A stretch of DNA of 63,518 bases, from positions 1-63,518 of the forward strand of contig PAZY01000053.1 of assembly GCA_002715765.1 (NCBI GenBank), given 5' to 3'. A program made the translations under genes and the position numbers. The DNA is from Rhodobiaceae bacterium. Lineage in GTDB: Bacteria; Pseudomonadota; Alphaproteobacteria; Parvibaculales; Parvibaculaceae. Below are positions 1 through 9,551 of the stretch, in pieces (within the stretch, counting starts at the first letter, position 1; the number at the start of each line of letters is the position of its first letter). The notes beneath the pieces are model-generated. The model had not been told where the DNA came from and searched no databases. It saw nothing but the letters and a program-made list of their open reading frames with translations.

Positions 1-167
1 ACGGGAGAATTGCCAGACGGAACAACGCGCGGTGTCCCAATTGTCACCGACCCGGAACCGGACGCAGGCGGCGTTGCCGATCCGCCGCCAAACATGCGCA
101 TCAATCCGTAAAAAAGTGCTGTCAAACCCATCGCCAAAAGAACCTCATCGCCTACAGAACGTCCCAT
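1..167 (-). CDS. Prophage membrane protein, partial (runs off window)
   Basis: An open frame from ATG at 167 to the window edge, 55 codons visible. It overlaps the stop of the preceding gene and has GGGGA about 7 bases upstream of the start. Residues 9-25 form a hydrophobic stretch compatible with one membrane span, followed by a Gly/Ser/Pro-rich linker. It is the last visible member of the virion gene run. I do not recognise a family. Its position suggests a virion membrane or spike-associated protein, which is inference. Confidence 0.6.
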   Translation of the reverse strand, partial: MGRSVGDEVLLAMGLTALFYGLMRMFGGGSATPPASGSGSVTIGTPRVVPSGNSP

Positions 168-481
168 GTGAAGTCCCCGAACGCATCCGTCGAATTTGAA
201 AAAGCGGCCAGAGAAACGCCGGGAGGAATGAACAGTTCGCGCGGAAAAACACTTACACCGATGCCTTGCTGATACATGATCAGCACATCGTTTCCATACC
301 TGTTGAACACCAGCGAACCATTAACCGCAGTCACATTCCGCAGCACAGCCGTGCGCAAAATAACGCCATCGACATTGGCCAGCGCACTCACAAGCTCAAC
401 ACCCAAGCTGATTGTGCCGGTAAACTGATTAGCGCCAATTGGCGCAATTGATCCGCCATCTGATGTTTTCCAACCAGCCAT
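152..481 (-). CDS. Prophage small beta-rich virion protein candidate
   Basis: 109 residues with no membrane span. The sequence looks all-beta: alternating hydrophobic residues, an Asn-Arg-Tyr-Gly-Asn turn, then an IPPGVS segment like the PGE/PGxS loop found in many phage capsid-decorating beta-sandwich proteins. The start ATG at 481 shares one base with the stop of the 202-residue gene upstream (TAATG), and AAGG lies within 12 bases, so translation is probably coupled. The C-terminal half resembles the end of the upstream protein in pattern. It may be a vertex (penton or spike) protein. No family was recognised with certainty. Confidence 0.6.
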   Translation of the reverse strand: MAGWKTSDGGSIAPIGANQFTGTISLGVELVSALANVDGVILRTAVLRNVTAVNGSLVFNRYGNDVLIMYQQGIGVSVFPRELFIPPGVSLAAFSNSTDAFGDFTWDVL

Positions 482-1089
482 TACACTACCTTTTCCTCAA
501 GCACAGATACGAGCCCGGCAGTGCCAGACGAAACGGCATTCAGCGCACCCGTGCAGGTGGTCTCGAAGGTCTCGCCGGGTGCCAAAAAATGCCCCACATA
601 AGAGCCGGACGTCGATAGAGCGACCTCCGAAGCACCAATATTTTTGTAAATTGCCCGCCGCCTATCGGCATTTGAAACACTCAGCGCCACGCTTCCACCA
701 GCCGGTACAACTTTCGGCGCACCGGGAGAAAAAACATTAGCAAGCCGGTCCCCGAAATTCTTGACCTCAACCGGCACATTTGTTCCGCCGAAGACAACCC
801 GATCATCGAAGACTTGGCCCTCCCCGACAATAATTTTGATTGTGTTTGCAATGCCCTGGGTCTCCAAAAAGTGAAGTTCCGAGAAAGTCGGGAGAGAGCC
901 TGTTAGCGGGTCACGCTCGGACGCCAAACCAAGCCCTGCAAAGCCGGTAATCAGATCCTCGCTCGACGCCCCAATTTCAAAATCATGAGTGGCGGAAAGA
1001 ATGCGAAAAAATGACCCATACAACGAGCGCCGCGTCTGTTCGTTCGGGTCCAGTTCTATCGTCATCTCTTGAAAGGTCGAAAATTTCAT
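481..1089 (-). CDS. Prophage virion protein, candidate vertex/spike protein
   Basis: 202 residues, no membrane span. The N-terminal half carries mixed sequence; the C-terminal part (about 125-200) is beta-rich with a LAPGETFET segment and an SGTAGLVSVLEE ending typical of small beta-sandwich phage surface proteins. The start shares its first base with the stop of the 136-residue gene before it, and the stop overlaps the next start, so the genes read as one translated unit. A role as minor capsid, penton or spike protein is inference from location and fold impression. The sequence alone does not allow a family name. Confidence 0.6.
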   Translation of the reverse strand: MKFSTFQEMTIELDPNEQTRRSLYGSFFRILSATHDFEIGASSEDLITGFAGLGLASERDPLTGSLPTFSELHFLETQGIANTIKIIVGEGQVFDDRVVFGGTNVPVEVKNFGDRLANVFSPGAPKVVPAGGSVALSVSNADRRRAIYKNIGASEVALSTSGSYVGHFLAPGETFETTCTGALNAVSSGTAGLVSVLEEKVV

Positions 1090-1499
1090 CAGCGCATCAC
1101 CTTGTAAGCCACGAAACCAGCGGCAGTGATTGCCACCACTTTGACCAACTGGTCCATAAGCTGCTTTGTGTCTGTTTCGCGCGAAGCAGCAAATTGAGCC
1201 TGCGTTGCCGACACAAATTTGTTAGACCGGTCATTCACATCATCAACGGCATCAATAGCCGCATCGAAGATGCCGCGCGCGAAGCCAAAAGCCTCTTCCG
1301 TGGTCTCAAAGTTGAAGCCCAGCGCATCCCGCACAACATCGCCGGACAGGTCATAATTGTAGACATAGGAATAGGCCGACGATCCGTCTTTTGCAGACGT
1401 GATCGTTGATCCTTCCGTCGCCGCAAGCCGCTCATCGCGATTTACAGTCGTGGAATTTGTCGCCTGCGATGATGCTGATTTGCTTTTATTGAAACACAT
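1089..1499 (-). CDS. Prophage virion protein with C-terminal membrane anchor
   Basis: 136 residues. The first 45 residues are polar and Ser/Thr-rich, the middle (about 66-115) is helical and acidic, and residues 118-134 form one hydrophobic span ending in a basic residue. That layout, a soluble domain tied to a membrane by its very C-terminus, recurs in two neighbours and fits a protein anchored in an internal virion membrane. ATG at 1499 overlaps the previous stop by one base. Family unknown; the structural role is inferred. Confidence 0.6.
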   Translation of the reverse strand: MCFNKSKSASSQATNSTTVNRDERLAATEGSTITSAKDGSSAYSYVYNYDLSGDVVRDALGFNFETTEEAFGFARGIFDAAIDAVDDVNDRSNKFVSATQAQFAASRETDTKQLMDQLVKVVAITAAGFVAYKVMR

Positions 1500-1891
1500 C
1501 AGACCGCCTCGCGCGTGAAAAATGTAGCCCGCTTGCGCATCCCGAAACGCTCTGCAATTCGCTCCATGGCGGGCTTTTCAATCATGCATTGTAGAGAGGC
1601 CGACCTCGCGTCAGCACTCGCCACAATCGCCTGAAACATCATCCGCAAGGCGAGCGGTGCGCCTTTTGCGTTCATGCCGATAATATCAATGGCAAGGCCG
1701 CTAACGGCATTTTCAAGGCGATAGGCCATGACCCCCATCAACGCCCCTGCATCATCGCGAGCCGTGAGAAAATGAAGCTCCCCCGCCTCCCAAGCCGGAA
1801 GCAAGTCACCAGCCGGAAAATCAACCGGTGCCGTTGCCTGAATAGCGGCATCAAGTGTTTCTGAGAAAACCTCTGACAAGTTCACATTCAT
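1499..1891 (-). CDS. GNAT-fold-like protein inside the virion gene cluster
   Basis: 130 residues starting at ATG 1891, which overlaps the stop of the previous gene by ATGA. The order of elements resembles a GCN5-type acetyltransferase: a beta strand with LHFLTARDD, a turn, GVMAYRLENAVSGLAIDII, then a helix (about residues 78-93) and a C-terminal AERFGMRKRATFF segment like the end of GNAT domains. The usual acetyl-CoA pyrophosphate loop (Q/R-x-x-G-x-G/A) is not evident; MNAKGAPLALRMM sits where it should be. It may be a catalytically dead or highly diverged GNAT used as a structural or internal protein. Confidence 0.55.
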   Translation of the reverse strand: MNVNLSEVFSETLDAAIQATAPVDFPAGDLLPAWEAGELHFLTARDDAGALMGVMAYRLENAVSGLAIDIIGMNAKGAPLALRMMFQAIVASADARSASLQCMIEKPAMERIAERFGMRKRATFFTREAV

Positions 1892-2124
1892 CGCTTGCCC
1901 CACAACAGAAAGAAGCCAATCGCAACACCGCCCGCAATCAGCAACGCCGTATTGTTCAGGTTGATACCGGAAGGTGCCCCGGTCGCGCTTGCCCCCGTAC
2001 CGACCGCAAAAGGACCGGTTGAAAACAACCCGCCATCTTGGGCGAACGTCGAAAGCGGATTTGTGGACGCGGACGTAATGGGATTGTTCGTATACCCGCC
2101 GCCGCCAATTGGGAGCTTTGGCAT
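1888..2124 (-). CDS. Prophage small C-terminally anchored membrane protein
   Basis: 78 residues: a Gly/Ser/Thr/Ala-rich N-terminal part and one membrane span at about 58-75 ending in Gly-Lys-Arg. The tail, with ATGAPSG followed by LLIAGGVAIGFFLL, is similar in pattern to the tail of the next gene upstream (ATGTAPG ... LLMIGGAAVVAILLL), so the two look like tandem paralogues. It lies two bases after that gene. A virion membrane protein is the most likely role (inference). Confidence 0.65.
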   Translation of the reverse strand: MPKLPIGGGGYTNNPITSASTNPLSTFAQDGGLFSTGPFAVGTGASATGAPSGINLNNTALLIAGGVAIGFFLLWGKR

Positions 2125-2126
2125 TG

Positions 2127-2504
2127 CTACCTCCGCAGAAGCAGAATAGCGACCACGGCAGCACCGCCGATCATCAACAGTTTGGGATCAACACCCATAA
2201 AGCCCGGCGCGGTTCCCGTTGCCTGCGCAACCGATCCCGCCGCCGTCTGAGCGGCCTGATTTGTCGCAAACTGGTTTTGATACTTGGCAAGCTCAAATTG
2301 TGTGAGAGCCTGATAGCCCTGCGTGACCGCGCCCGCAACATCAGAAAAAATATTGCCGAGCGATCCGAAAAAGCCGCCATCATCGACCAACACAGAACCC
2401 GCCGTCTCCACGTTGGTTGACGTGAAAGCGTTGGCGGCGGTTGACCAACCAACCGCCTCCGCGAAGTCAATGCCTGAGCCGTCACCATAGAAAAAATCAG
2501 ACAT
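2127..2504 (-). CDS. Prophage C-terminally anchored membrane protein
   Basis: 125 residues. The N-terminus is acidic and aromatic (MSDFFYGDGSG), the centre is Gln/Ala-rich and probably helical (about 60-95), and residues 107-123 are a membrane span closed by two arginines. It follows the capsid gene by nine bases and its end resembles that of the 78-residue neighbour. Such proteins are typical of phages with a lipid layer beneath the capsid. No family name can be assigned from sequence. Confidence 0.65.
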   Translation of the reverse strand: MSDFFYGDGSGIDFAEAVGWSTAANAFTSTNVETAGSVLVDDGGFFGSLGNIFSDVAGAVTQGYQALTQFELAKYQNQFATNQAAQTAAGSVAQATGTAPGFMGVDPKLLMIGGAAVVAILLLRR

Positions 2505-2513
2505 AAACGCCTC

Positions 2514-3365
2514 TTAGTCAGGCTGGCCGAGATACTCAACCAGAATTGCAAAATCGTTTGCCGTCGCCATGTCGATATCCATGCGCAGCTCACCCACCAA
2601 CTTGCCGCCTGGACGGCTTGTCGGAAGACGATCTTCCGGACGACCGTTCTCCATAAAATCGGCATGGAAGACGGCAGCATCAGGAATAAAGCCAAGCTGT
2701 TTTTGGATTGCGTTGTTCAACACGCGATCCCGCTCAAACGCCGTCACCTGATCGACCTTGACGGTTACGGATTTAATATCCGCCGCCGCTGTCTCGAAAA
2801 AGTGCAGTGCCCGAATGTCGCCAAGCTCGCGCGGAATGTCATTGGTCATCGTCACCAGACCAACAGCCGACACGCCCTTGTTGAATTTGCGCGTCTTGAT
2901 GATCGGTCCCAAAGGCAACAGCTTGCCATTTGGCCCACGTGCATTATCGACAATGGCCGAGACTTCGAGTTTCGGAGACACACGCCCCGCTGCAATCGTG
3001 ATCTGAGCGGTAAACGTCGATGCATTGCCCTCAATCGCCCATGCAAGCGTATCTTCGCCGCCCGGTGTGCGCGCGTCTGGCTCTGCAAAGAAGACCGGCA
3101 GTACGCCGTCCTGATACGCGAAGCCCTTGCGCTTGTTCAGCGTAATCAATTCAGCCGCCGTATATTGGCGCTGCGACTTGCCATTCAACCGTAGGTCAAC
3201 CGACGTGATTGCCGCCTTCATATTGGCCTCAGTCACATCAACGCCGTTTTCGGTATAGCGGAAATAGAGCTGGTGATAGCGATACTCGGTCGGAATTTCG
3301 ACGGTTGCCACCTGCCCCGCGCCGACGCCTTTGATCGTTGTAATCGGAATTGTTCGCTTGAACAT
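2514..3365 (-). CDS. Candidate double-jelly-roll major capsid protein (P2-like)
   Basis: 283 residues from ATG 3365; a TTG one codon earlier is less likely, and GGGAG stands about 7 bases upstream. The opening has a short basic N-terminus, then IPTEYRYHQLYFRYTE and a strand pair with LRLNGKSQRQYTAAELITLN, resembling the first jelly roll of PM2 P2-type coat proteins. A second all-beta half follows (about 140-283). No cysteine or membrane span is present. PM2 P2 is of comparable size. It sits downstream of the packaging ATPase, as expected. The assignment rests on pattern, size and context; a profile or structure comparison would settle it. Confidence 0.72.
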   Translation of the reverse strand: MFKRTIPITTIKGVGAGQVATVEIPTEYRYHQLYFRYTENGVDVTEANMKAAITSVDLRLNGKSQRQYTAAELITLNKRKGFAYQDGVLPVFFAEPDARTPGGEDTLAWAIEGNASTFTAQITIAAGRVSPKLEVSAIVDNARGPNGKLLPLGPIIKTRKFNKGVSAVGLVTMTNDIPRELGDIRALHFFETAAADIKSVTVKVDQVTAFERDRVLNNAIQKQLGFIPDAAVFHADFMENGRPEDRLPTSRPGGKLVGELRMDIDMATANDFAILVEYLGQPD

Positions 3366-3376
3366 CAAAGGCTCCC

Positions 3377-3502
3377 TTAAGCGTCGTAACCGGCGATTGC
3401 CTGAGCTACAAATTCATTGTTGCGCATGGCGTTCATGATCAGACCGGCGACGAAAATCGCACCGATTGTCAGGCCCACATGCTTCATGTCTGCATTCGAC
3501 AT
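3377..3502 (-). CDS. Prophage 41-residue single-span membrane protein
   Basis: A small gene: ATG at 3502, TAA at 3377-3379. It encodes a polar start (MSNADMKH), one hydrophobic segment (about residues 9-25, VGLTIGAIFVAGLIMNA) and a short polar tail ending in Tyr-Asp-Ala. GGAG lies 8 to 9 bases upstream, inside the end of the preceding small gene, whose stop is one base before this start. Tiny membrane proteins next to the capsid gene are typical of PM2-like viruses. The exact function is unknown. Confidence 0.65.
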   Translation of the reverse strand: MSNADMKHVGLTIGAIFVAGLIMNAMRNNEFVAQAIAGYDA

Positions 3503-3503
3503 C

Positions 3504-3623
3504 TCACACTCCAAGGTTTGGAAATTGTTTCTTCAAAGTCGGCTCCAACAAAACCTTGTAGAGCGCAATCGAAAGAGCGCCCGCCACTGCTGTTACAGCT
3601 ATTGATTTGAAGTCCGTTTTCAT
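3504..3623 (-). CDS. Prophage 39-residue single-span membrane protein
   Basis: ATG at 3623, TGA at 3504-3506. The product has a charged start (MKTDFKS), a hydrophobic stretch at about 8-26 (IAVTAVAGALSIALYKVLL) and a basic tail (LKKQFPNLGV). It is directly followed by the 41-residue gene, with which it is probably co-translated. The opposite charge layout of the two small proteins suggests they may take opposite orientations in the membrane, which is inference. Confidence 0.62.
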   Translation of the reverse strand: MKTDFKSIAVTAVAGALSIALYKVLLEPTLKKQFPNLGV

Positions 3624-3631
3624 CACCGCAA

Positions 3632-3687
3632 GGGAACGTCTTGCAGCCTTGTTTTGCAAGCGAAAACGTCCCCTAGGGGAAGCCCCT
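3632..3687. promoter_or_regulatory. Inverted repeats between the ATPase and capsid modules
   Basis: The gap after the ATPase gene holds a broken inverted repeat, CTTGCA (3640-3645) with TGCAAG (3655-3660), flanked by GGGAACGT and ACGTCCCC. Next to it are a palindrome CCCCTAGGGG (3670-3679) and a competing pair AGGGG/CCCCT (3675-3679 and 3683-3687). There is no clear T-run. It could be a processing site, a leaky terminator or a regulator-binding site separating early and late genes. Confidence 0.4.
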
Positions 3688-3697
3688 AAGCTTCCGC

Positions 3698-4381
3698 CTA
3701 ACTTAATTGAACCTTGCCAGATGCCAGCGTCTTGCCGCGCTTCATCCCATCTATTGAAAGTTGCACAAACTCATATTTTTTGAGCCCTCGCAACGCGGGT
3801 TTGTCAGCGTCGGCCATGTTCTCTTCAACCGCGCGCCGGGGAGTGTCTGGCAGCTTGAACGCATAAGTCACAGTGGCATTGTTCCTAAAGGTTTTGCTGA
3901 TCTGTTGCGGGAACTGCGTCACTGCAATCGCCTCAAGCCCCCAATGCCGCCCCTGATTGCAAAGCTTGGCCATGGCAAACATTTCCTTAGGCAGCTTCGA
4001 AACAGGGAAAGACAGGTCCATTTCCTCAATCACAAGCGTGAGCTTTTCCCGCAAGCGTCCCTCACGATAGCCACGCTGCAAGTCAAACATCCACAATGCC
4101 AAATTATGCAAGCACACATCTTCCTGCCCATCGAAAGGCACCGCCGCCATGCGGAACTTTTTTCTCTTCAACGCACGCTTTGCAGCCGCGCTCAAGCGTT
4201 TGCGATCTTCCCCGGCATGGCCCGTCATCTGGACCGCTTCCCAACCTCTCATCTGTGCATAGTCGGCAATCGGATCGAAGGCGATCACGTTTTGACGGGG
4301 ATCAATCAACGCGCGGACCAAGGTTGATTTCCCTGATCCGCGCGGACCGTAAACGGCCACAAGTGCAGCGTCCTTAATCAC
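3698..4381 (-). CDS. HerA/A32-type genome-packaging ATPase
   Basis: 227 residues. Walker A is GPRGSGKS at 12-19; Walker B is LTLVIEE at 114-120, followed by Met-Asp. The segment NQGRHWGLEAIAVTQ (142-156) with RNN at 166-168 matches the sensor/arginine region of the FtsK-HerA superfamily viral packaging ATPases (PRD1 P9, PM2 P9, poxvirus A32 group). Length is close to PM2 P9. The ATG overlaps the previous gene's stop (ATGA). It probably pumps circular DNA into the preformed, membrane-lined capsid. The family call is firm; membership of the PM2 branch is inferred. Confidence 0.85.
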   Translation of the reverse strand: MIKDAALVAVYGPRGSGKSTLVRALIDPRQNVIAFDPIADYAQMRGWEAVQMTGHAGEDRKRLSAAAKRALKRKKFRMAAVPFDGQEDVCLHNLALWMFDLQRGYREGRLREKLTLVIEEMDLSFPVSKLPKEMFAMAKLCNQGRHWGLEAIAVTQFPQQISKTFRNNATVTYAFKLPDTPRRAVEENMADADKPALRGLKKYEFVQLSIDGMKRGKTLASGKVQLS

Positions 4382-5007
4382 TTGATATTGACCACCGTAG
4401 CCGCATCCCCCTTAGAGGATGCCTTAGAAAATCCCTCAGGGGGACTTTCCTTCGCACTCGCCTCACCCCCAAGGTCTTGTCTTACGGGAGGCCGCGAGCG
4501 CGCATCCAATTCCATGCGGATCACCATCAGTTTTCCCATGAAAAAAGCACCAATCACCATTGCGCGTTGCACCCATTCATTACCGGGTTCAACCAGCCAA
4601 GACAGATATGGCGTCTTGCAGGCAATCTCATAAATGGCATCAGATGCCTCACGCGCGGCCCCCTCCTCATAATCTTGGATCGGCAGAGACCGGATAGGGA
4701 AAGGCTTGACCGGCAGCATATTGGGCGCGGCAAACATGCTCCTGAAGGTCGCAAAAAACACGTCTGCACTTATGCGCTCAAGCGGCTTTTTTTCGTCGCC
4801 CAAAACCTCGCCAGCAACGTCCTCAACCGCATCATCGTTTTCGATCTGCTCAACGTCACTGATCGAAAACGTATCCGCTTTTTGGCTTGGCGGCGATTGG
4901 CTCACCCCCTCCTGATCCGGCTCGGTCTTGCTCACCGTCTCCACCTTCTGGTTTGTCTCCGACCTCTTCAGCGGCGGCGTTCCCGGCAGCACTGGCAAGT
5001 GATCCAT
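4378..5007 (-). CDS. Prophage single-span membrane protein upstream of ATPase
   Basis: 209 residues. The first 75 are acidic and low-complexity; a conserved-looking core follows (about 80-145, with FFATFRSMFAAPNM and SLPIQDYEEGAAREASDAI), then a membrane span at about 145-164 and a polar Ser/Lys-rich tail. The ATG at 5007 has AGAGAG upstream and lies inside the end of the preceding gene, which is read in another frame. The end overlaps the ATPase start by four bases. It could link the packaging ATPase to the virion membrane, but this is only a positional guess. Confidence 0.6.
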   Translation of the reverse strand: MDHLPVLPGTPPLKRSETNQKVETVSKTEPDQEGVSQSPPSQKADTFSISDVEQIENDDAVEDVAGEVLGDEKKPLERISADVFFATFRSMFAAPNMLPVKPFPIRSLPIQDYEEGAAREASDAIYEIACKTPYLSWLVEPGNEWVQRAMVIGAFFMGKLMVIRMELDARSRPPVRQDLGGEASAKESPPEGFSKASSKGDAATVVNIK

Positions 5008-5248
5008 TTTCTTTCTCTCTCATCTCAGCAAAAAAGTTTATGTACTTTTCAGACACAGCTTGATTGTAGTTGCGATTGTTGCCGCCGCACGTTTGAGTGT
5101 CATAGCGGCCCTGACAGTCGGCAAAAACGCGACCATTCTTATCGACCTTCCAAAGCACACGAGCGCCGCAGCGCTCGCCTGACTTGGGATCAATGACAGT
5201 GAAGCAAGCGCCGAAGCCCAAAGCCTTTGCAGTTGCTGGTGACGCCAT
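4856..5248 (-). CDS. Prophage cysteine-rich protein, possible zinc ribbon
   Basis: 130 residues from ATG 5248, which shares one base with the previous stop (TGATG); a TTG one codon upstream is an alternative start. Cysteines at 15, 27, 45 and 54 surround Val-Leu-Trp and Val-Phe-Ala strands, as in a small zinc ribbon. The C-terminal half is Gly/Glu/Ala/Lys-rich and disordered-looking, and its last 150 bases are shared out of frame with the next gene. Zinc-ribbon transcription factors occur in PM2, but I infer only metal or nucleic-acid binding here. Confidence 0.5.
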   Translation of the reverse strand: MASPATAKALGFGACFTVIDPKSGERCGARVLWKVDKNGRVFADCQGRYDTQTCGGNNRNYNQAVSEKYINFFAEMREKENGSLASAAGNAAAEEVGDKPEGGDGEQDRAGSGGGEPIAAKPKSGYVFDQ

Positions 5249-5421
5249 CAATCCACCTCGCGATAGACCGGCAGGCCATTCTTGTAACCGACGATTTCAG
5301 GCTCATCAGACGCGCGCCCGTCAAGCGCCTCGCGGATTGCAGCCGCCGCAAGGGTTGCAACCTTCCCGGCCTGCCCCGTGGCTGTACCTGCGTACTCTTC
5401 AAGTTCTTTCAGTTTTGACAT
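5248..5421 (-). CDS. Prophage 57-residue protein, unknown
   Basis: ATG at 5421, immediately after the Rep stop (TGA at 5423-5425). Longer upstream starts would lie inside rep. The product has a helical, Ala-rich N-terminal part and a short C-terminal beta hairpin (EIVGYKNGLPVYREV). The stop overlaps the next start by one base, so it belongs to the same translated unit. It may be a small regulatory or Rep-associated protein. I do not recognise the family. Confidence 0.5.
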   Translation of the reverse strand: MSKLKELEEYAGTATGQAGKVATLAAAAIREALDGRASDEPEIVGYKNGLPVYREVD

Positions 5422-5422
5422 T

Positions 5423-6646
5423 TCAGGCTTCCTCAAAATCGGCAACATCTTGCCAGTGGCTAAATGATCCATACGGATCGAAAGCCCGCCGCCGTGGTGC
5501 TGGTGGCGGGGCATAGTTGGGCGCTGGATGCTCGCGCGCGTCGTAATAGCTGTGACAGTCATGCAGGTTGAGGAAGCGCGTCACGCCCTCGCTACCGCCT
5601 TCCGCTGCCGCGTCCAGCAAGGCCCCTGTCAGGCCCTTGGTGCAGATCCTCCGCCATGTGCCGAAATCGAGAAGCGCAACGCGTCCGCTTTCTGCACAAA
5701 GCACTTCGCCCGTCTCTTTGTCGATGGTCTCGCCTTCGCTCTTGCCGTCGATTGCCAGTTCTGCGTCCGTCGCCGGATAGCGCAGGTCATAGGCTTCACG
5801 TGATCCCTTGGAATAGGTCAGGTGCCGCGCCCGAAAGAAGGCTTTCGCGTATTCTCGAAAGAGCCGTGCCGCGCCGTCGTCATGTTCTGATGCTTTCAAA
5901 AGGTTCCAGACAGATCGGCCGGCAGCTTCCTTTTGAGCGCCCTTTGCGATTTCATGGCCCGCGCCCCATTTTGCAACATAGGCCGCAGCTTCCGCGCCGG
6001 TAGATGCCCGCCGAAGGTCGAAAGCGCCAATCTCGGAAGAACCGCCCAGCTTGCGAATGCGGGTTTCCCAGCGCTCGAACAGATCAAGCCGCAGCATTTC
6101 CGCCTCGGTATCGTCCAGGGCGCGTTCTGTGAGCAAAAGAACATGAATATGTGGATGCCAGCCGTTGCGCCCGTGTGTGACTTCGAGCGCACGCACTGTG
6201 TGCGCGATGCCGTACCGATTTTTAAGCCGCGCCCATGGGGCCCCGGCCTGCATTTTTTGCCACGCTTGTGCAACGGTATCCCGAAGGGATCGGCATTTAT
6301 TGAAAGCATGGTGGCGAAGTGTGAACGTCGCCATATAGACCACGCCGCCTGCCTTTTCGTGTGCGTCGGCAAGCTCCTGCTCTTCGTCGGCGCGACGATT
6401 TGAAATTTTGTTGGAGCAAACAGGGCATTGCCAAATGCTTCCGCAGGTCTCAAGGCCGCGAAAGTGTGCGCCGCCCCCTTCTCGCCAAATCTCAACCGTT
6501 GGGCCTGTTGGCGTAGCTCCGCAGGCTTGCAATCTAGCATTGTCGGTTATCTCTCCAGCGAGCCGCCTAAGTGAGTGCCTTTCTTGCCGTGCCGTGTCCC
6601 GAAGGTCTTGGGGGGGTAACTCTGTTTGCGTATCTATCAAGAGCAC
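5423..6646 (-). CDS. Rolling-circle replication initiator (HUH endonuclease)
   Basis: 407 residues from a GTG at 6646. A cysteine knuckle (C68, C74, C77 in CGSIWQCPVC) precedes motif 1 (ATFTLRHH, about 106-113), the metal-binding HUH motif (HPHIH at 164-168) and a Tyr-x-x-Lys motif (YVAK at 223-226) carrying the likely nicking tyrosine. This layout matches the pC194/Rep_1 type of plasmid and phage initiators, with an added C-terminal domain of about 150 residues. It would nick a double-strand origin and start replication of the circular phage genome. PM2 also uses a rolling-circle initiator, of a different length (P12). Confidence 0.85.
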   Translation of the reverse strand: MLLIDTQTELPPQDLRDTARQERHSLRRLAGEITDNARLQACGATPTGPTVEIWREGGGAHFRGLETCGSIWQCPVCSNKISNRRADEEQELADAHEKAGGVVYMATFTLRHHAFNKCRSLRDTVAQAWQKMQAGAPWARLKNRYGIAHTVRALEVTHGRNGWHPHIHVLLLTERALDDTEAEMLRLDLFERWETRIRKLGGSSEIGAFDLRRASTGAEAAAYVAKWGAGHEIAKGAQKEAAGRSVWNLLKASEHDDGAARLFREYAKAFFRARHLTYSKGSREAYDLRYPATDAELAIDGKSEGETIDKETGEVLCAESGRVALLDFGTWRRICTKGLTGALLDAAAEGGSEGVTRFLNLHDCHSYYDAREHPAPNYAPPPAPRRRAFDPYGSFSHWQDVADFEEA

Positions 6647-6670
6647 CCCGCCGACGAAAACTGAGAACTA

Positions 6671-6898
6671 TTAAGACACCTCAACGACCTTAATGCCCGC
6701 GACCGGTCTTCCCTGAAAGTGCTCTCGTGCGTCGGCCAGCGCAGCTGCTTCGAGCTCTTCGCGGTTGCTCTTAAAGAGTTCAGGGAAGACAAGTCGAAGA
6801 TCATCAATTTCGAATGGATCTGCACAGTACGTAATTGAGTAGATTTCGAAATCTTTGTCAGACCGATAGAAAATTTTGTAGTGAGTTTCTGATGGCAT
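6671..6898 (-). CDS. Prophage 75-residue protein, unknown
   Basis: The best start is ATG 6898 with AGAGG about 12 bases upstream; the in-frame extension further upstream is Arg/Gly-rich and lies over the neighbouring gene, so it is rejected. The protein is acidic, with mixed strands (THYKIFYRSDKDFEIYSITY) and a helix (REELEAAALADARE). No known motif. It stands between a zinc-binding-like protein and Rep in the early part of the operon. Confidence 0.5.
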   Translation of the reverse strand: MPSETHYKIFYRSDKDFEIYSITYCADPFEIDDLRLVFPELFKSNREELEAAALADAREHFQGRPVAGIKVVEVS

Positions 6899-6959
6899 TT
6901 GATGCTCAATCCTCTTTGGTGAAACAAAGAACTTATCAGATAATTGAGAGATATCCCGC

Positions 6960-7160
6960 TCATGCCTTCGTCCCCTGCCCGCACCAATCAAGCGTGCTGG
7001 TCCACGGCCAGAGGCCGTTGCCGTACGTGTCGGCACCAATTGGGGCGTTGCGCCGACATTCACCGGTTTGTGCGCCTTCATCCGTGCGATTGAAGAACTT
7101 GCATGTCAGGCAGCAAAACCCGTTACGCAAGATCTGTGATGATTGGGCCGGGCTCACCAT
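6960..7160 (-). CDS. Prophage 66-residue cysteine protein (phage-type Zn-binding)
   Basis: Contains Cys-x-x-Cys at 17-20, then C35 in GECRRNAPIG and C60 in WPWTSTLDWCG. This CxxCxF...GxCRRxxP...WP...DWCG pattern recurs in small proteins of many phages and probably binds one zinc ion. Its start overlaps the previous gene's stop by 7 bases, with GGGGC just upstream. Function unknown; the pattern is remembered from other phages and is not based on a search. Confidence 0.65.
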   Translation of the reverse strand: MVSPAQSSQILRNGFCCLTCKFFNRTDEGAQTGECRRNAPIGADTYGNGLWPWTSTLDWCGQGTKA

Positions 7161-7441
7161 GTGCGCCCCGTGAACGCGCGCCGAGAATTGAACTCATCCA
7201 GCTTGAACGCGCTGGGACCGTTCTTATCGACCACGCCGACACACTCGCCGCATTCCTCGCCTTCAGGATGGCGCACAACGCGGGCTTGTTTGGCTTTGTT
7301 GCCCATGGCCTGCCGCAACGTCTCATCAAGCGCGTGGACCGGCACTGCCGTCACATCGAAAGACTTCACCAGCCGCCCGGTGGCCGTGTAGACATCGGCC
7401 CGCATTAACATTTCTGAATGGTTTGTTGATTGCTGTCTCAT
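7154..7441 (-). CDS. Prophage 95-residue protein, first gene of the leftward operon
   Basis: Begins at ATG 7441 beside the palindromic control region; AAAGGGGA lies about 11 to 18 bases upstream. A second start at codon 11 or 13 is possible. It contains a GEECGEC element and strand-rich N-terminal half (ADVYTATGRLVKSFDVTAV). As the first gene of the lytic-type operon it could be an early regulator or replication helper; the family is unknown. Confidence 0.5.
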   Translation of the reverse strand: MRQQSTNHSEMLMRADVYTATGRLVKSFDVTAVPVHALDETLRQAMGNKAKQARVVRHPEGEECGECVGVVDKNGPSAFKLDEFNSRRAFTGRTW

Positions 7442-7659
7442 GGCTCATTCATCCCCTTTGAGCTTCAATCCCCCCGAGGCACCGAGACCAACTTTGCCCG
7501 ACAGTCTCGGGCCTCAGGGGATGAGTGTCCACTTCCAAGTTGAACTTGGAGGTGTGGATCAAACTGGCCAGCTCTCAGCCGGACTGTCAACCCCCTAGCC
7601 ATTACTTATAAAAAGGGGATATGATCTTGAAACCAGACTCATTGCCCGGAGTTCATCTA
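7442..7659. promoter_or_regulatory. Prophage divergent control region with two large palindromes
   Basis: Two strong inverted repeats lie between the leftward operon and the regulator gene. The first pairs CCCCCGAGGCACCGAGAC (7471-7488) with 7504-7520 around a 15-base loop. The second is TCCAAGTT-G-AACTTGGA (7534-7550), extended by TCCAC (7528-7532) and GTGGA (7554-7558). ATCCCC copies at 7451-7456 can compete for the first repeat. These could be repressor operators, promoters for both directions, or the rolling-circle origin with its hairpin. The sequence does not tell which. Confidence 0.55.
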
Positions 7660-7953
7660 ATGGAAATCGACGAATTACTGACCGCCGCCATGAGCGCCGC
7701 AGCCCTGCCGTCTGACAACAAACTTGCCCGACGCATTGGCGGTTCATCCAGTCAGATCAGCGCATGGCGCAAACGGTTCTATTACCCTAAAGACGAGACT
7801 TTAATTGAGCTTTGCGAGCTTGCGGGTGTTCCTGAGGACGTCGGTTTGATGTGGCTCAACGTGTGGCGCTCGGACGAAAAAGCGAAGCCGATCTATGAGA
7901 AGTTGGCGCGTGATTTGGAAAAGCGCGCAAGTAAAACAAATCGGGCAGCGTAA
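7660..7953 (+). CDS. Prophage HTH regulator (DUF3693-like)
   Basis: 97 residues from ATG 7660, preceded by GGAG at 7648-7651; an in-frame ATG at 7621 has no well-spaced ribosome site. Residues 18-42 form a helix-turn-helix (SDNKLARRIGGSSSQISAWR). A second part (LCELAGVPEDVGLMWLNVWRS) follows the layout of small Xre-like regulators of the DUF3693 kind found in filamentous and other small phages. It is the only rightward gene of the element and faces the operon across the palindromes, so it is the likely lysogeny repressor (inference). Confidence 0.65.
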   Translation: MEIDELLTAAMSAAALPSDNKLARRIGGSSSQISAWRKRFYYPKDETLIELCELAGVPEDVGLMWLNVWRSDEKAKPIYEKLARDLEKRASKTNRAA

Positions 7954-8285
7954 CCAAGGCGGGGACTTTCGCGCCGTTACATCAAAACAATAGCGCGCCC
8001 ATTTTCCCGTTATTTTTCAATAGGTTGTGAGAGCGGCCGGCGAACCCGCATGTGTGTCCTTTTATACATTATGCGCCTTTTTGTTATACTGGTAACTCCT
8101 TACCTGACCCCTTATTGGAGGCGACGGCAAGAAGCGCCCTGCGACTAATTTGGACTCACAGATGATCCGGGTATTCGCTTTGACTGCATCTGCCAATCAG
8201 TTTACCCACTGCGCTTCGAACTTCAGCGCGATTATTTGTCCGAGTACCGGGCAGCATTACGCGCATCCTGAAAAAGCATCCCACG
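7954..8285. other. 332-base gene-free phage/host junction
   Basis: No convincing gene here. It holds the end of the prophage regulator transcript, an AT-rich section, the dif-like sequence (8052-8079), and a TATACT box (8085-8090) that could serve as a -10 element for the Hsp70-like gene. GGCG/CGCC arms around 7960-7975 are too weak to call a terminator. The switch from phage to host DNA is placed within this stretch. Confidence 0.5.
8052..8079. other. dif-like XerC/XerD recombination half-site, putative att junction
   Basis: On the minus strand, 8079 to 8052 read as arm, spacer, arm of a 28-bp dif. The right arm plus spacer (8063-8076, TATACATTATGCGC) is identical to 14 bases of the E. coli dif reverse complement as I remember it. 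The phage-side arm (8052-8062) matches the XerD arm at only about four of eleven positions. A good XerC arm towards the host and a poor XerD arm towards the element is the layout expected for one junction of a dif-integrating phage. An AT-rich promoter coincidence remains possible. Confidence 0.5.
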
Positions 8286-9551
8286 ATGGAGACTGCCGTG
8301 ACAAACTGGCTGGGGGTCGATTTTGGCACCTCAAATTCAGCTGCTGCCTATTTCTCAGACGGTAAAGTCGTCAATATCGAACTGGAGCCAGGCCGGAACA
8401 TGATCCCGACCGCGGTCTTTTTTGACTTTCACGAGCGGGAAATTCTACTCGGGACTGCTGCCAACAAGGCGCTGATTGATGGCCTGGATGGCCGCTATAT
8501 GCGTTCTCTTAAGAGCGTACTCGGTACCAGCCTGATGAGTGAGAAGCGCCCCCTTCTCGGCCGGCGGACCGACTTTTACGACATCATCACCGTGTTCTTG
8601 CGACAGCTGAAAAGCCGGGCTGAAAAGAGCACCGGACAAACATTTGATCACGTTGTTTCAGGGCGGCCGGTTTTCTTTCACGATGGCGACCCTCAACGAG
8701 ATCAGGCCGCGCAGAATGATCTGGAGACGTGTTACCTGCGCGCCGGATTTTCCAGCGTGAAATTTTTGTTCGAGCCCGTTGCGGCTGCCTTCGCAAATGC
8801 AGGCCACGCTCATGCCGGGACAATTGGCCTCGTCGTCGATATTGGTGGCGGCACCTCCGACTTTACGCTTTTCCGGACAGCGGCAGCAAACTGCATTGAT
8901 GTTCTTGCGTCGAACGGGCTTCGCTTGGGCGGTACCAATTTTGACCGCCAAATCAGCTTTGATCATTTCATGCCATTGCTGGGACGTGGCCAGAAGCTTA
9001 AACGACGCCTTCCGGACGGGATTATCGAAGCCCCTACCCATATATTCGCCGAACTTTCGACCTGGGAAAAAATTCCCTTCCAGTATGACCCCAAAAACCT
9101 TCTGTTTGCGCAAGGCCTGTTGCGCGACGCTGTCGAACCACAGACTTTCTCTCGGTTGGTAAAAGTCCTCGAAATGCGGCTTGGCCATGATATCGCTTTT
9201 CTCGCTGAGAAAACCAAAATTTCATATAAGCGGCATGCCACTTCCCAAGATGTGGATCTGGGCATCATTGAACCCGACTTGTATGCACCACTTTCTCAAG
9301 ACGGATTTGAGCAAAGCCTCGCGAGATTTACTCCCCCGCTGGCCGCCGCTATTCAGGAGATACTGGATAACGCAAAAATCCCTGCAAGCAATATTGGGCG
9401 CGTTGTCACCGTGGGTGGCTCCAGTTCCATGCATATCGTTACGGACGCTATTGGCCACTCTCTTCCTGATTTAGCCAATCTGGAGATCGAAGATGGAGCT
9501 ATTTTTACATCTGTTGTGGATGGGCTCGCGATTGCCGCAAGTCAGCAATAG
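8286..9551 (+). CDS. Hsp70-family protein, YegD-like
   Basis: 421 residues, an actin/Hsp70-type ATPase domain with almost no substrate-binding domain. The phosphate-1 motif GVDFGTSNS is at 10-18, EPVAAAF at 163-169 and the phosphate-2 motif VVDIGGGTSDF at 183-193; an adenosine-type GGSSSM motif lies near residue 390. This matches YegD-like chaperones, which lack the DnaK peptide-binding part. It is the first host gene after the prophage and is followed by a hydrolase in the same direction. A GTG at codon 5 is an alternative start. Confidence 0.8.
   Translation: METAVTNWLGVDFGTSNSAAAYFSDGKVVNIELEPGRNMIPTAVFFDFHEREILLGTAANKALIDGLDGRYMRSLKSVLGTSLMSEKRPLLGRRTDFYDIITVFLRQLKSRAEKSTGQTFDHVVSGRPVFFHDGDPQRDQAAQNDLETCYLRAGFSSVKFLFEPVAAAFANAGHAHAGTIGLVVDIGGGTSDFTLFRTAAANCIDVLASNGLRLGGTNFDRQISFDHFMPLLGRGQKLKRRLPDGIIEAPTHIFAELSTWEKIPFQYDPKNLLFAQGLLRDAVEPQTFSRLVKVLEMRLGHDIAFLAEKTKISYKRHATSQDVDLGIIEPDLYAPLSQDGFEQSLARFTPPLAAAIQEILDNAKIPASNIGRVVTVGGSSSMHIVTDAIGHSLPDLANLEIEDGAIFTSVVDGLAIAASQQ

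Follow-up and report, generated by a model that had tools for sequence, protein, structure and literature searches.

Several groups of PM2-like tailless phages, alphaproteobacterial ones among them, have been described. Jorvik, a phage of Rhodobacter capsulatus, is available as a characterised isolate, and a count of prophages related to it reached 849 (PMC10589892); Yutin et al. described the alphaproteobacterial clade A, Rep_1 types included, in 2022 (PMC9502842); and the International Committee on Taxonomy of Viruses created three further Vinavirales families in 2025 (PMC12451628). The integration mechanism was called unclear in 2022 (PMC9502842), and since then the case for docking at dif has rested mainly on dif-like motifs. 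Here we examine the first 8079 bases of a 63,518-nucleotide contig from a Rhodobiaceae bacterium (C53, PAZY01000053.1; the whole contig is hereafter 'the window'). We find that positions 1-8079 very probably hold the greater part of a Vinavirales genome, that of a temperate, tailless phage which contains a membrane, is of the alphaproteobacterial kind, and resides as a prophage in a Parvibaculum-family bacterium.

The element consists of a tightly packed run of minus-strand genes, which extends from about 7.4 kb leftward to base 1, and a single plus-strand helix-turn-helix (HTH) gene (Table 1). Assignment to Vinavirales calls for a PM2-type double-jelly-roll capsid protein, a P9-type packaging ATPase near the capsid gene, and ordered P3, P8, P10, and ORF-h proteins around it. 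The predicted capsid protein matches Pfam P2_N (5e-19) and P2_C (2e-18), far above the cut-off, as well as PHROG major head protein 8536 (6e-20). An AlphaFold model, computed from an alignment with 18 prophage homologues, reached a mean predicted local distance difference test score (pLDDT) of 94.5 and a predicted template modelling score (pTM) of 0.90. Its top PDB match is PM2 P2 (2vvf; E 3e-22, template modelling (TM) scores 0.84/0.88, root-mean-square deviation 2.1), followed by the PBCV-1, iridovirus, STIV, and PRD1 capsid proteins. The protein is thus predicted to be a PM2-type double jelly roll, and the capsid assignment made in the original prediction came through this structural check.

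To compare the other virion genes, we built profiles from homologues, drawn from as many as 24 related loci, and matched them to PM2 and Jorvik proteins (percentages here and in Table 1 refer to these profile matches). The ATPase family matched Jorvik P9 at 99.6% and PM2 P9 at 98.1%. Although phrog_2666 carries the label 'terminase large subunit', the window ATPase matches it across its P-loop ATPase part and fits the P9-type packaging ATPases, as had been proposed. Profile matches of 52-82%, the weaker ones backed by position, point to ordered P3-, P8-, P10-, and ORF-h-like proteins around the capsid gene. The gene order (ORF-h, ATPase, P7-like, P2, P3, P8, acetyltransferase-like, P10, spike) is shared with PM2, Jorvik, and clade A, and it recurs in relatives from the host's family and class; p209 lies upstream of the ATPase gene, as ORF-h does in PM2. 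Five small products (p45, p51, p78, p125, and p55) each contain a strongly hydrophobic 19-residue stretch, in agreement with the run of tiny membrane proteins anticipated from the sequence. The further expectation that nearly all small genes would be unrecognised does not hold for most of the structural ones, which have a PM2 or Jorvik counterpart by synteny and profiles, though some only weakly. Also as expected, no tail or terminase gene was seen in 1-8079 or in the open reading frame lists for the lysis ends of complete relatives.

The spike is encoded by two genes (p202 and p109) in the window and in the related loci L009 and L011, and in one piece in L008. Same-place homologues occur in related loci, and the profile match to PM2 P1 is weak. 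The p202 model is all-beta, with the PM2 virion chain 2w0c_L among its top PDB matches (E 1e-4, poor global TM). The name of the acetyltransferase-like protein rests on position, since it has no Pfam match.

At its lysis end the element is cut by the contig edge: the window starts at base 1 of the contig, which leaves the element's lysis genes and second attachment site beyond that edge. The truncated gene at this edge occupies the position of the SleB-type hydrolase gene of L009-L011. Its position and hydrophobic N-terminus suggest that it is the start of a SleB/Hydrolase_2-type lysis enzyme. The product shows weak similarity to the N-terminus of the L011 hydrolase (score 42, reached by 0 of 300 shuffles), and similarity to the L009 and L010 hydrolases was not above chance.

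Table 1. Predicted features of the prophage in the window.
Feature	Position	Strand	Evidence or remark
p55, truncated protein (N-terminal 55 residues), cut by contig end	3..167	-	candidate start of SleB/Hydrolase_2-type lysis enzyme; membrane protein candidate, hydrophobic stretch
p109, second half of split spike protein	152..481	-	aligns with same-place genes of L009 and L011 and with C-terminal half of L008 one-piece spike
p202, P1-like spike/penton protein (first half)	481..1089	-	homologues in 21 related loci; PM2 P1 31%
p136, P10/gp j-like, C-terminal hydrophobic stretch	1089..1499	-	homologues in 23 related loci; PM2 gp j 52%
Acetyltransferase-like protein (GNAT position)	1499..1891	-	homologues in 13 related loci; Jorvik gp12 20% (weak)
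p78, P8-like membrane protein	1888..2124	-	PM2 P8 82%, short C-terminal stretch; hydrophobic stretch
p125, P3-like membrane protein	2127..2504	-	PM2 P3 55%; hydrophobic stretch
PM2 P2-like double-jelly-roll capsid protein, 283 residues	2514..3365	-	Pfam P2_N and P2_C; model and PDB match 2vvf
p45, small membrane protein, P7 position	3377..3514	-	homologues in 22 related loci; hydrophobic
p51, small membrane protein	3504..3659	-	hydrophobic stretch; no homologues detected in related loci
P9-type packaging ATPase	3698..4381	-	Walker A motif; phrog_2666 2e-21; profile match to P9
p209, ORF-h-like putative membrane assembly factor	4378..5007	-	homologues in 21 related loci; Jorvik gp6 79%
p131, P14-like zinc-ribbon transcription factor	4856..5251	-	homologues in 18 related loci; PM2 P14 92%
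p104, no assigned family	5248..5562	-	no relatives, no family match
Rep, HUH rolling-circle initiator (Rep_1), 407 residues	5423..6646	-	Pfam Rep_1 2e-9; phrog_11698; motifs
p136b, early gene	6671..7081	-	open reading frame only; no family match
p66, small Cys-rich protein, 66 residues	6960..7160	-	51% identity over 47 residues to same-place L011 protein
p95, early gene	7154..7441	-	open reading frame only; no family match
HTH protein, likely repressor of lytic genes	7621..7953	+	phrog_638 transcriptional regulator 7e-15; PM2 P15 64%
dif-like attachment site, 28 bases	8052..8079	-	XerC arm (host side) AAGGCGCATAA, centre TGTATA, degenerate XerD arm (phage side) AAAGGACACAC

We next considered how the prophage is joined to the chromosome. 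The element ends in a dif-like site whose outer edge coincides with the end coordinate originally given, 8079. Its XerC half and centre occur once in the window with no mismatches, against an expected 0.14 occurrences at up to two mismatches. Host genes restart directly beyond the site, with an Hsp70-like gene and a metallo-hydrolase gene, and the same metallo-hydrolase adjoins the element in the genomes G005, G008, G017, and G023. Five congeners each carry exactly one canonical dif (GGCGCATAATNTATATTATGGNAAA), at the locus that matches the window's junction. Three of the five (G003, G004, and G006) lack the P2 capsid gene and, with an intact single dif at the locus, thus show the unoccupied site. 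At this locus, two complete relatives, L008 and L009 (9.9 and 10.9 kb), are each flanked by two dif-like sites. From the intact single dif in capsid-less congeners and these two bounded relatives, integration via host XerC/XerD is most likely, a step that agrees with proposals for Jorvik and NO16. What marks a XerCD-dependent element, a dif-like junction at the host dif locus with an intact dif in unoccupied relatives, is found here, with one junction in the window; the call of a prophage is upheld by the same comparison.

The dif locus also fits the replication terminus, because in two complete congeners dif lies about 55% of the genome from gidB, taken as an origin marker. GC skew was too weak to prove a terminus, and the single-copy dif and the gidB distance were used in its place. 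The locus shows other changes as well. In the window, the Hsp70-like gene (8286-9551) separates the metallo-hydrolase gene from the dif-like junction; in G003, G006, and G007 the nearest Hsp70-like match is on a different contig from the hydrolase, and the hydrolase side of dif has therefore been rearranged in the window's genome. On the side opposite the hydrolase, G003 carries about 3 kb of extra genes between dif and the usual flank (L074, 5868-7596), so that the dif locus takes up other inserts too.

The sites of family members differ in which arm has been retained. L010 (4096-14301) and L012 (3825-14673) sit at this locus as well and face the other way; they retain the XerD arm, and their XerC arm is degenerate. 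As we read the sites, a kept XerC arm (window, L008, L009, and L011) would correspond to one orientation and a kept XerD arm (L010 and L012) to the inverted one, and the degenerate arm of the phage site appears to lie on the repressor/replication end in 6 of 6 family members.

The capsid sequence of the window element is distant from those of described phages: the closest relative found is 47% identical, and the closest among phage records 31%. As a sole query it recovered no relatives from genome contigs or viral contigs, and the capsid alignment was too variable for use as a query; we used the ATPase alignment instead. That search returned nothing from viral contigs and 18 genome loci, every one with a capsid gene downstream of the ATPase at a distance of about 1 kb or less. 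P2_N is present in 6 of 40 genomes of the order and in 10 of 386 genomes sampled from the class. The window's capsid protein clusters in the tree with those of Parvibaculum-family prophages, within a set of 10 rows that are all prophages and mostly alphaproteobacterial by name (98/98). PM2, PG21, and NO16 are separate (100/99), the Autolykiviridae representative also stands apart from the window's group, and Jorvik and YY lie on long branches that do not allow placement; named clade A sequences were not part of this tree. The ATPase tree was too poorly resolved for placing the element. The host family includes a Parvibaculum genome, in keeping with the alphaproteobacterial host originally proposed.

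Among described systems, clade A (which includes Paremcibacter congregatus prophages with Rep_1; PMC9502842) is among the closest by its published description. It shares the host class, the gene order ORF-h/ATPase/P7/major capsid protein/P3/P8/GNAT/P10/spike, the Rep_1 replicase, and replication-module swapping, and the SleB-type hydrolase is found in the window's nearest relatives. Its integration mechanism was left open (PMC9502842), whereas a dif site is indicated for the window element. Jorvik (Mestraviridae; PMC10589892, OP588643) shares the structural gene order, the P2, P9, and gp6-like proteins, and an HTH gene beside a dif-like attachment site with no integrase, but it has a short non-Rep_1 replicase, an opposite-strand packaging operon, other lysis enzymes, a RuBisCO-operon insertion, and a distant capsid sequence. 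Membership of Mestraviridae was rejected on the Rep_1 replicase and on the ATPase, which is on the capsid gene's strand with no opposite-strand packaging operon. PM2 (Pseudoalteromonas, Corticoviridae; AF155037) shares the capsid fold and sequence profile, P9, the P14-, P8-, and P3-like proteins, and gene order, but has a larger P12 replication protein, no acetyltransferase gene, and a capsid in another branch. Vibrio phage NO16 (Asemoviridae; PMC9966536) is likewise temperate and PM2-like, with proposed XerCD use at dif-like sites, but has a gammaproteobacterial host, another replication gene, and a capsid in the PM2 branch. We rejected membership of Corticoviridae, given a capsid outside the PM2 branch and a Rep profile with no match to PM2 P12. 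The 'PM2/corticovirus-like' description in the original prediction is thus right as to PM2 and too narrow as to corticoviruses, the capsid falling outside the branch of PM2 and Asemoviridae. The new lineage it raised was overstated given Jorvik, its 849 related prophages, clade A with Rep_1, and the 2025 families; a new genus or higher rank is nonetheless plausible, because none of the relatives found exceeds 47% identity to the capsid protein.

The expected rolling-circle Rep is also borne out, with an HPHIH motif and Tyr223 within YVAK beside its Rep_1 match. Outside the Vinavirales group, 163 records of small rolling-circle plasmids contain relatives of it, as do filamentous phages, PMBT54 among them. 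It is 30-35% identical over most of its length to small-plasmid Rep_1 proteins and that of inovirus PMBT54; the likeness to these replicons is confined to the replication module, with no shared capsid gene. Rep_1 proteins are encoded in the window, L010, and L011 (the latter two about 55% identical to the window's), and Rep_trans-like proteins, all below the curated cut-off, in L008, L009, and L012. L009 and L010 have capsid proteins that are 91% identical and unrelated Reps, and L008 and L012 have Reps that are 78% identical and capsid proteins that are 30% identical. These pairs indicate that replication modules pass between the relatives without regard to the capsid module; the kind of swap reported for Paremcibacter (PMC9502842) is thereby seen again in a different family.

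The HTH gene beside the dif-like site likely encodes a repressor of lytic genes; its product is 55% identical to that of the L008 HTH gene, which also adjoins a dif-like site. PADLOC gave only weak RmrA model matches to it, across the HTH part, and nothing for the small early genes. p66 has no family match, and a role as an early regulatory or anti-host factor is a guess.

Several points weigh against the reading as a temperate Vinavirales prophage. The rest of the assembly yielded neither the left end with its lysis genes nor the second junction: a hydrolase search of the rest of the assembly returned one 46-residue match on C13 and nothing else, the other host flank and the canonical dif had no match in it, and an Escherichia coli-like dif pattern found nothing in the host's own genome. 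In addition, the spike, acetyltransferase, and P7 assignments are based mainly on position, and excision, replication, and particles are predictions from the gene content. The element could be a defective remnant, of the same kind but no longer able to excise or form particles; the truncation at the contig edge leaves room for gene loss, and neither a canonical dif nor a continuation was found in the assembly. We consider this unlikely, as every core gene in view is an open reading frame and follows the order of complete relatives, and what is missing lies just where the contig ends.

Integration by an integrase or transposase encoded in the unseen part, rather than by host XerC/XerD, is less likely still. 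An IS630-type transposase is present in some gut Vinavirales (PMC9502842), and integrase genes are frequent in the tailless Vibrio prophages that target dif (PMC11630473), but the junction here is dif-like and at the dif locus, and the open reading frame lists that we inspected at the termini of complete relatives showed nothing of integrase type. A further candidate is a FLiP-type phage with single-stranded DNA (Finnlakeviridae), since these phages too have both a double-jelly-roll capsid and a Rep of the rolling-circle type (PMC5894146). This candidate was rejected as highly improbable: the window capsid matches PM2 P2 by sequence, FLiP capsids have no sequence similarity to these proteins, and a P9-type packaging ATPase is present.

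For a temperate phage of the Vinavirales, we propose the following cycle. Circular phage DNA would be inserted at dif by host XerC and XerD, so no integrase would be needed, and the HTH protein beside the dif-like site would keep the lytic genes off. After excision, Rep would nick an origin and start rolling-circle replication of the circle. The ORF-h-, P3-, P8-, and P10-like proteins may then shape the inner membrane, while P2-like capsomers and P1-like spikes would form an icosahedral shell to be filled by the P9-like ATPase. Particles would be released by lysis enzymes encoded past the contig end.

Taken together, these results allow a broader proposal, which we advance tentatively and hold to be possible rather than probable. 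The element would represent a new genus- or family-level Vinavirales lineage in Parvibaculum-like Alphaproteobacteria, with a plasmid-type Rep_1. Its members would share dif as a docking place and keep one canonical Xer arm, the degenerate arm on the repressor/replication end would set the orientation of insertion, and replication modules would be traded independently of capsid modules.

The overall picture of PM2-like tailless phages is unchanged by these findings; such viruses were already known as common in Alphaproteobacteria, and the type itself is known. What they add is helpful detail on two points, docking at dif and the exchange of modules. The empty-site comparison adds a case for docking at the chromosomal dif by tailless prophages in which no integrase is visible, and this case comes from a family of Alphaproteobacteria to which Rhodobacter does not belong. 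Clean pairs with which to ask why replication modules are swapped are also present in the host family – near-identical capsids with unrelated Reps, and close Reps with very different capsids.

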